This document shows positions 2,846 through 39,624 of a stretch of 64,000 nucleotides of DNA, one piece after another. The notes under the pieces were generated by a model that saw only the letters and a program-made list of their open reading frames with translations, had not been told where the DNA came from and did not search any database. The stretch covers positions 62,001-126,000 of the forward strand of contig CADCWG010000146.1 in NCBI GenBank assembly GCA_902806335.1, in the 5' to 3' direction. Made by a program: the position numbers and the translations under genes. The DNA is from an uncultured Thermomicrobiales bacterium. Lineage in GTDB: Bacteria; Chloroflexota; Chloroflexia; Thermomicrobiales; UBA6265. The first letter of the stretch is position 1, and every line of letters starts with the position of its first letter.

Positions 2846-3204
2846 CGGGTCCATCGTGAGCCACCGGATGGCGGGGCGGCACCATCCGACCCCTGGCGTC
2901 CGACGCGAGCCCAGCCGGCGAAGCGTCGCCGCCATCGATCCGTCGGTCAGCACCACCGCGGGGTCACCGGCCGCCCGCCGAGCCGTCGGCGTCCGGCGAG
3001 ATGCGTCCAGCCGCCCGCCCCCAATCACTGAATCCGGGCGATTGAGTGGGCCCATCAGACCCATCCGCAGGAGGCAGGAGGTTGAAGCAGCTCAACGCCC
3101 GCCCCGTGGCGGGGAACGTGTGATGCACCTCCATGCGTCGCTCAAACGGTTCGTGGGCCGTCGGGACCGGCCGGGCCCGGCCGCGGCGGTGAGACGGAGG
3201 CCGG
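2846..3204. other. Intergenic region before the amidohydrolase
   Basis: No coding gene is seen. A short stem CCCCG/CGGGG with loop TGG lies at 3102-3114. Around 3022-3044 a stretch containing CACTGAATCCGGGCGATT resembles one end of the interspersed repeat described at 4876, but the match is too short to call a copy. Confidence 0.45.
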
Positions 3205-4627: not shown

Positions 4628-4875
4628 GCTACGCCCACGGCATGCCGCTCTTGGGCACGAAGAGGAGGCCGGTCGAGCGGGTTCGGTCCAGGACCCAGAG
4701 CAGCCGCCCCCGGGCTTGCGACGCTCGGCCGGCAGCGAGGCGACGATGGTCCGGAGCTCGTCGGGCTGGAGGGGGTCGCGCATGGCGCTGGCCCACCATG
4801 CCACCACCGGTTTCGACAGGGACTCTAGTTCCGGGGCCTCATCCGGTCGGTCCGCGGCCGGCTTGATCCGGCTTC

Positions 4876-5025
4876 GTCCCTGATACCGAATCCGGGGAAT
4901 CGCCGGCGCTTCGCCCGGCGGGGTCGCGGCCGACTTCGTCCCTTTGCCCGGGGCGTGCCCCGGGCAGGCCGACTGTCCGGGCACCCCCGAAGCCACCCCT
5001 GATCACCCGGATTCGGTATGGGCCT
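4876..5025 (+). repeat. Interspersed repeat element, copy A (MITE/REP-like)
   Basis: A roughly 150-bp element with 14-bp terminal inverted repeats ATACCGAATCCGGG (4883-4896) and CCCGGATTCGGTAT (5006-5019). At its centre is an inverted repeat TGCCCGGGGC-GT-GCCCCGGGCA (4945-4966). Its first 59 bases match copy C (from 35759) at 47 positions without gaps. Copy B (39284) shares the end motif and TTCGCCCGGCGGG. No open reading frame is inside, so it would be non-autonomous. Confidence 0.65.
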
Positions 5026-5303
5026 CTGACCTTCGGCGGCGCGTTCCCTCGACCGCGATCGGCAGCCTCCGGCGGGACGCGGCAGTGACTGAGCGACGAT
5101 TCGCCTCGCGCCGGGTCGGTTCAACCGCTCGATGGTACGCCTGGCGGTCCACCACGCTCCGGCAATCGCGCGGGCCGACAAGGAGCGAGCCGGAGGAGCC
5201 GGCCCGGGACCCGGACGGTGGCCCACGCACCGTCGGTCGTTCCACGCGATGCACCGGCGCGGCCCGGCGGGATGGTGCGATGGGCGATAGGGGTGCTTCC
5301 CCG

Positions 5304-20025: not shown

Positions 20026-20120
20026 AGCGGCTGAGACGGAATCCGTGTGGCCACCATGACCCGGCCTGACGATCCGCGGCCAACTGAGACCCAAGCTAGT
20101 CCGCCGGGCGAAACTCGGGC
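20026..20120. repeat. Interspersed repeat element, partial copy E
   Basis: AGCGGCTGAGACGGAATCCG (20026-20045) matches copy B at 39284 with one change, 22 of 24 bases over a slightly longer span. CCGCCGGGCGAA near 20101 is the reverse complement of the inner motif TTCGCCCGGCGG of copies A and B. It sits just beyond the stop of the CBU_0592-like gene. Confidence 0.45.
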
Positions 20121-35481: not shown

Positions 35482-36052
35482 CCGCGCTGTCGTCGGTCCC
35501 ATGCCCCGCCAGTCCGGGCGGCTCGGGGTGGACGAGCGGCGGTGGCCCGAAGGACGGCGTCCACCGCGGCGACGCGGGCGCGTTCGCGAAGTCGTCGGCA
35601 GGGAACATCCCAGCGGACCCGACTTCGCCGCACGCCCAGAGGGAAAGGGCACGAGTCTGGAGTACGTGTCCTGCGCGGGATCACGTCGGCGTCGGGACGG
35701 CGGGCCGCCCCTCCCTCCCGTCCGGCTGAGGCAGACCGGCGGCCGGACACAGCCCACAGTCCCTGACACCGGATCCGGGAGATCCCCGCCGCTCCGCTCG
35801 GCAGACTCGCGGCCGGCTGACGCCAGCTTCGTTCCTGAGCCCGCGGCTTGCTCCGGGCGGCCCCAACCATCCCCGCGCCCCAATACCACCACCGACCAGA
35901 CGGATTCAGTGTGGGTCCGCGCTGCCGACGACAACACGCGGCTCGCCGAGATGGTCCCGGCTCGGTCCGTGGCGGAGCAGGCAGCGTAAGCGTCTCGACC
36001 TACCCGATCCTTGCCACGGTCGGAGAGGCGGGGGCCCGGCCGCTCACCTCCG
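35482..36052. other. Intergenic region before proC
   Basis: No gene is seen. The repeat copy C occupies 35759-35917. The genes on each side converge here, so terminators are expected, but I see no clear one. Confidence 0.5.
35759..35917 (+). repeat. Interspersed repeat element, copy C (MITE/REP-like)
   Basis: About 159 bp. It begins GTCCCTGACACCGGATCCGG and matches copy A at 4876 in 47 of the first 59 positions without gaps. It ends with CGGATTCAGTGTGGG, corresponding to the right end of copy A. The inner CCCGGGGC hairpin of copy A is degenerate here. Confidence 0.6.
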
Positions 36053-39260: not shown

Positions 39261-39624
39261 GGCCCTTGGCCGCCCGGATCGCCAGCGGCTAAGACGGAAT
39301 CCGGGTGATCGAAGGGGATTCGCCCGGCGGGCTCGCGGTGGGCTTGAGCCGGCCGCGAGCCCGAGTCTCTGACCCAGAGGCTCGGTCCGCTGCCGGCGGA
39401 GCCGCCGGCGCGTCCCCATCCCTCCACCGAGCAGCCGGATTCCGGATAACCGGACAGCGCCGCCGACCGAAGGTTGTGTGCGACCGGCGCCCCGGACGTG
39501 GCCGTCTGCGGTCCTCCCCGCCGAGCAAACGCTGCGGGCCAGCGTGCCCGGCGCGCCGCACGGCGTCACGCCCGCCTCAGCCGCGAACGGTTCCCGGGCA
39601 GCGATCGCGTGGGGATCGGCGGCG
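39261..39624. other. Intergenic region between convergent genes, mostly repeat copy B
   Basis: No gene is seen. Copy B of the interspersed repeat takes up 39284-39450; the remainder shows no nameable signal. Confidence 0.5.
39284..39450 (+). repeat. Interspersed repeat element, copy B (MITE/REP-like)
   Basis: It begins AGCGGCTAAGACGGAATCCG, shared with copy E. The next part has ATTCGCCCGGCGGGCTCGCGG-like sequence, close to copy A's TTCGCCCGGCGGGGTCGCGG. The right end GCCGGATTCCGGATAA mirrors the left end. The inside holds several G/C-rich inverted repeats. Confidence 0.55.

Follow-up and report, generated by a model that had tools for sequence, protein, structure and literature searches.

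A MITE family in an uncultured Thermomicrobiales bacterium and its likely connection with an IS630-type clade duplicating TNA

The window analyzed here is a 64,000-nucleotide stretch of contig CADCWG010000146.1, from an assembly of an uncultured Thermomicrobiales bacterium (GCA_902806335.1; a draft of 4.82 Mb in 332 contigs, 92.6% complete). Three copies of a repeat without coding capacity, A, C and B, are found in its intergenic gaps. According to the ORF list, A is located between converging genes and C and B come after genes, which agrees with the initial annotation, where the repeats were described as intergenic and several of them as lying at 3' ends. The elements are about 135–165 bp long and are bounded by 18-bp imperfect terminal inverted repeats (TIRs), TACSGRATCCGGGTGATC. 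The features of the three copies are as follows:

4831–4883, + strand: left-hand remainder of an older MITE-I copy, split by the insertion of A into its interior CTGAG; found on its own by the profile as a fragment at 4830–4883 (E 9.7e-07)
4881–4883, + strand: left target-site duplication of copy A, TGA
4884–5018, + strand: MITE-I copy A, 135 bp
4884–4901 and 5001–5018, + strand: TIRs of copy A, TACCGAATCCGGGGAATC and, inverted, TACCGAATCCGGGTGATC, 16/18 matching
5019–5021, + strand: right target-site duplication of copy A, TGG, i.e., TGA with one substitution
5022–5035, + strand: right-hand remainder of that older copy (GCCTCTGACCT...), continuing the left-hand one across A
35764–35766 and 35912–35914: flanks of copy C, TGA and TGG
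35767–35911, + strand: MITE-I copy C, degenerate, 145 bp, 20% from the consensus, TIR 12/18
39290–39292 and 39447–39449: exact duplication TAA/TAA of copy B
39293–39446, + strand: copy B, divergent subfamily, 154 bp, TIR GACGGAATCCGGGTGATC 14/18

The cores of the copies had been placed correctly in the initial annotation, with their ends set too far outward: positions 4876–4883 and 5019–5025 lie outside A and correspond to the duplication and to the older copy hosting the insertion of A. Elsewhere in the window, a lone end-like sequence, CACTGAATCCGGGCGATT, is found at 3026–3043 with 4 mismatches; it is possibly a remnant end, without a match to the family profile.

Copies A, B and C belong to one repeat family, as seen from global-alignment scores of 143.5 (A–C), 123 (A–B) and 134.5 (B–C), where shuffled sequences reached about 80 at most, and from their matches to a profile of 38 aligned family copies built from sequence alone, with E values of 3e-26 for A (4885–5017), 2e-24 for C (35768–35910) and 2e-19 for B (39294–39444). 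When the host assembly was searched, copy A alone found about 40 further places on many contigs, at least 151 nearly complete copies matched the profile at E<=0.01, and the end motif TACCGRATCCGGSTGATC occurred 312 times at up to 3 mismatches, compared with 10 occurrences of the reversed control. Hence, the family is spread over the genome and is more than a single duplicated region, in line with the interspersed family of about 150 bp first proposed. These intergenic repeats, at least 150 in number, represent about 0.5% of the assembly. Several subfamilies were distinguished, with ends common to all of them (e.g., TACGGAATCCGGGTGATCACCC...), and individual copies diverge from the consensus by 4.6–27%, the least diverged of the 38 being at 4.6%. 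A partial copy E (20026–20120) had been listed together with A, B and C. Its membership is supported neither by the profile, which gave no match to it in the window at E<=10, nor by its alignment scores, which stand at the edge of the shuffles (A–E 57.5, shuffled maximum 64.5; B–E 61.0, shuffled maximum 58.5). Similarly, the inner module TTCGCCCGGCGG, initially thought to be common to the copies, is exact in A and B and inexact in C, and with 54 occurrences found at 2 mismatches for 45.6 expected it is uninformative alone.

Across the 38 aligned copies, the edges of the element are abrupt (TACCGGATCCGGGTGATC on the left, GATCAGCCGGATTCGGTA on the right) and the flanks beyond them are unrelated, except for a TNA on each side, with C before and G after. 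The left N was equal to the right N in 16 of the 19 own copies having TNA on both sides (7.2 expected from shuffles, p<0.0002) and in 13/13 copies of relatives (4.8 expected, p<0.0002). Such an equality, far above chance, indicates that the three bases TNA of C|TNA|G are duplicated and that the adjacent TA belongs to the element. An exact 3-bp duplication was kept in only 17 of 57 own copies, in line with the age of the copies. Removing A together with one copy of its TNA restored the older copy without any gap. Indeed, the flanks of A joined with one TGA aligned with the MITE-I consensus interior over 64 bp (83%, no gap, E 1.9e-16) and matched the profile with an E value of 2.4e-11. The insertion point of A is the interior stretch CCCTGAGCC, which contains the target CTGAG. 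The window's own copy A therefore displays insertion, duplication and empty site together. The same interior stretch was hit twice more, by a MITE-II inside a MITE-I with TCA/TCA flanks (L101) and by a MITE-I inside a MITE-I with TGA/TGA flanks, where one base is missing beside the junction (L002). Nested insertions were observed in 5 of the 47 copies tested, and several more copies have another one within 100 bp. This insertion of copies into one another follows from the target CTGAG carried by the MITE interior. The flank statistics, the nested insertions and copy A thus agree on a 3-bp TNA duplication, and TA as the duplication of these MITEs is ruled out by the equal N and the empty sites.

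Full-length IS630-family elements of 1.1–1.2 kb with the same ends were found in four related genomes:

L073 (genome G017), 255–1407: partner IS, TACGGAATCCGGGT at both ends
L106 (genome G015), 1461–2579: partner IS
L107 (genome G004), 995–2116: partner IS
L109 (genome G027), 1455–2583: partner IS

Family models identified a DDE_3 domain (PF13358, 2.8e-19) on L053 and NF033545 (127 bits) on L073. The L073 transposase is encoded in two frames split at AAAAAAGGGGG, in what looks like a programmed frameshift. In L106, one variant, TACGGATTGCGGGT, is present at both ends, indicating that the ends evolve with the IS. One end of the MITE resembles the IS end on the N-terminal side of the transposase (..GGTGGYAT.GGG) and the other resembles the end on the C-terminal side (GGGTRATCAC), as expected for an internal-deletion derivative. 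Within the host assembly, the 92.6%-complete draft described above, no DDE_3 domain, no relative of the transposases of this clade and no IS630-type transposase at all was detected, so that a transposase with matching TIRs was found in the relatives and not in this assembly. A local autonomous partner is usual for MITEs but not required, and orphaned MITE families are known; repeated ISs are also often lost from draft assemblies. Considering the host assembly without IS630 transposase and a least diverged copy at 4.6%, the family looks old and orphaned in its host, which would have lost the transposase, keeping in mind how easily ISs drop out of such assemblies.

On closed plasmids, the same IS clade was found with ends starting with TAC, TAT or TAA and with exact TNA duplications in 9 elements from 8 genera (Thermus brockianus, Trichormus, Stanieria, Methylocystis, T. 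thermophilus, Deinococcus, Cyanobacterium, Azospirillum and Methylobacterium), the groups represented being Thermus, Deinococcus, cyanobacteria and Alphaproteobacteria. These elements are 1.08–1.17 kb long, with a DDE_3 transposase that in most cases is annotated, or can be read, as two ORFs, and the Trichormus element is annotated as ISAva6. On the Thermus thermophilus plasmid pTthSNM1-7c, an IS630-type element (L165, 1004–2080) lies inside another transposase gene. Joined with a single TCA, its flanks were recovered at 500/500 bases (100%) in at least 6 other plasmids, and this empty site proves the 3-bp duplication for the L165 element. Hence, the 2-bp TA duplication that is the rule in the IS630 family does not apply to the partner clade. 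Four ISs of draft genomes and metagenomes have TNA on both sides but with unequal N (TCA/TAA in L073, TAA/TCA in L106 and in L107, TCA/TGA in L053), as does one more plasmid copy of T. thermophilus (L166, TTA/TGA). Such flanks could have arisen through recombination between copies or through assembly joins. In a tree of the DDE domain, the 22 rows labeled TNA, three of which (L053, L155 and L156) owe their label to the ends without an exact duplication, formed one clade (support 100/98, 99% of bootstrap trees), and the TA-type IS630s of the same bacterial family fell outside it. It is thus likely that an IS630 clade present in Chloroflexota, Deinococcota, Cyanobacteriota and Pseudomonadota left the family rule of a TA target, a 2-bp duplication and a TA outside the element, shifted to a C|TNA|G target, a duplication of 3 bp and a TA forming its own ends, and seeded large MITE families in Chloroflexota, that of the present host with at least 150 copies.

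The ends are not restricted to this host. Indeed, within the bacterial family of the host, 16 of the 32 genomes have the end motif with at most 1 mismatch, and the MITEs of these relatives combine different interiors with the ends described here and with exact duplications (TTA/TTA, TGA/TGA, TAA/TAA and TCA/TCA). One genome of this family (G024, L115–L120) is heavily laden with MITEs: the end motif occurs there 208 times when up to 3 mismatches are allowed, compared with 14 in the control; many of these ends are identical over 30 bases, which suggests that activity there may be more recent. A scan of the collection also revealed the ends in MAGs assigned to Xanthobacteraceae, Thermomicrobiales, Lachnospiraceae, Rubrobacter and Acetobacteraceae. 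Two of these MAGs contain short elements whose duplications match (L049, TTA/TTA; L052 4771–4868, TCA/TCA), and the Acetobacteraceae copy has a broken DDE_3 transposase between the ends. In the Rubrobacter MAG (L052 4367–4868), a short ORF lies between two ends in inverted orientation, spaced 502 bp apart, and a complete MITE of 98 bp (TCA/TCA) occupies the right side, an arrangement that could be a small gene-carrying composite. Besides, a short perfect palindrome, GATGACACGGAATCCGTGTCATC, at L112 1856–1878 resembles two element ends fused back to back.

From these sequence comparisons, the repeats are very probably internally deleted, gene-less derivatives of IS630-type elements, mobilized in trans by a transposase of the TNA clade. 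Under such a mechanism, the transposase would bind the common 18-bp ends and excise the element together with its terminal TA; joining to C|TNA|G with a 3-bp stagger would then leave a TNA duplication on each side, and copies would pile up in gene gaps and inside one another before decaying. The non-autonomous, MITE-type nature proposed in the initial annotation is well founded in the inverted termini, the duplication, the dispersal, the nesting and the matching autonomous ISs. The REP-type nature offered beside it does not hold for a unit of about 150 bp with a target duplication. REPs are palindromes of roughly 20–40 bp without target duplications and are linked to RAYT transposases. Although the copies are many, intergenic and partly palindromic, as REP/BIME-type repeats spread by a RAYT (TnpA-REP) transposase would be, their length of about 150 bp, their fixed 18-bp inverted termini and their 3-bp target duplication are all unlike REPs; with the matching ends sitting on DDE transposons and the target-site duplications already refuting a RAYT origin, we give this explanation virtually no weight. 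It is also highly improbable that mobility was only the origin of the repeats and that they are kept for a role in the host, for example in terminating transcription, in RNA processing or in binding nucleoid proteins at 3' ends. The intergenic position, for some copies between convergent genes, would suit such a role, as would the strong hairpins (consensus MFE of -95 compared with -73 +/- 4 kcal/mol for mononucleotide shuffles), but selection against gene disruption also predicts an intergenic bias, and the consensus pairs almost without covariation (term -0.31). Moreover, copies decay individually (4.6–27% from the consensus) and sit inside one another, and the helices of the MITEs of related genera look unrelated in sequence, ends apart. 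With interior hairpins almost devoid of covariation and no Rfam match within the window, there is no sign of a conserved functional RNA, and nothing was seen to suggest that the repeats are under selection as RNAs or as terminators.

The nature of the transposase itself was weighed against a second source of 3-bp duplications. IS1031 is a bacterial group with such duplications and its target is TNA. The MITEs could accordingly have been mobilized by an IS5/IS1031-type transposase, the likeness of their ends to those of IS630-type elements being due to chance or secondary. TNA and CTNAG are indeed known targets on the IS5/PIF-Harbinger side, to which the eukaryotic NuwaII (PHIS), with the same C|TNA|G target and no relationship to the TNA clade, belongs (PMC4482050), and one DDE_Tnp_1 transposase fragment is present in the host genome (C191:75–251). 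However, this sole fragment has no such ends within the 1.75 kb examined, and the same ends occur on IS630-type elements from several genera and phyla, which themselves generate TNA duplications, one empty site being proven; this makes an IS5-type partner improbable and favors the TNA-clade IS630 transposase. A partner of the IS982 type was rejected as well: one element (L109/L134) has the right ends, but IS982 relatives elsewhere end in AACGCTTGGTGT.., and the IS982-type elements of relatives have ends different from those of the MITEs.

The element in question (L109 257–1451, identical to L134 2331–3525, G027:C526) is 1195 bp long, MITE-ended and flanked by TGA/TGA, with an IS982-like ORF inside. 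An inverted repeat of its own, AACGCTTGCTGTGAGA..TCTCACAGCAAGCGTT, surrounds this ORF. Considering this repeat and the other ends of IS982 elsewhere, the element is probably an IS982-type IS that landed in a MITE. An IS630-type IS directly adjoins it, with a TGA common to both. In another genome of the same order, with two replicons and 4.0 Mb (G145; L138, L142 and L144–L154), at least 13 IS982-type copies have AACGCTTGGTGT ends.

Among known systems, the family is comparable to RUP of Streptococcus pneumoniae, a 107-bp element linked to IS630-Spn1 for which mobilization in trans was proposed (PMC2229807). RUP and other IS630-linked MITEs are likewise short, gene-less, mostly intergenic and present in more than 100 copies with IS630-like inverted ends, whereas RUP targets TA and the window family has a 3-bp TNA with the TA inside the element, its sequence and GC content being unrelated. 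The Correia elements of Neisseria, of about 105–155 bp with a terminal TA motif and, in the long form, an IHF site (PMC2229807), resemble the family in size, high copy number, inverted ends and intergenic location but differ in end sequences. Regarding the ISs, the partner elements share with ISY100 and canonical IS630-Tc1-mariner elements the DDE_3/IS630 superfamily, the inverted ends and cut-and-paste transposition. In the latter, however, the flanking TA of the target is the 2-bp duplication and lies outside the element (PMC2170065), whereas it is inside the element in the TNA clade. In a survey of Thermus, a repeat of 2 bp is given for ISTth6, of the IS630 type (PMC6352166), in contrast to the 3-bp TCA of the L165 element; the two are compared as Thermus IS630 types and may not be the same element. 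A 3-bp duplication is also made by Fot, a lineage of the pogo group of IS630-Tc1-mariner (PMC7386202), which is eukaryotic and duplicates TAA instead of TNA. In contrast to the MITEs, the TNA-clade ISs such as ISAva6 and those of Thermus carry a transposase within their 1.08–1.17 kb, and their ends vary between lineages.

The repeats are therefore a newly recognized MITE family of an ordinary kind, and the notable part is the TNA-duplicating IS630-type clade behind them, which the curators of ISfinder may know. In the open-access papers searched, neither TNA duplications in IS630 nor MITEs of this group were described. To our knowledge, strict TA specificity is attributed to IS630/Tc1-mariner elements, and a TA duplication is presupposed by annotation tools and surveys. 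With a whole clade making a 3-bp TNA duplication, the ends of its elements have probably been called 2 bp off. For the host, the MITE reading accounts for at least 150 intergenic repeats that are nameless in the sources searched. For the IS630 family, CTAG with TA and CTNAG with TNA constitute a natural pair, which bears on how a transposase sets its stagger and its target.
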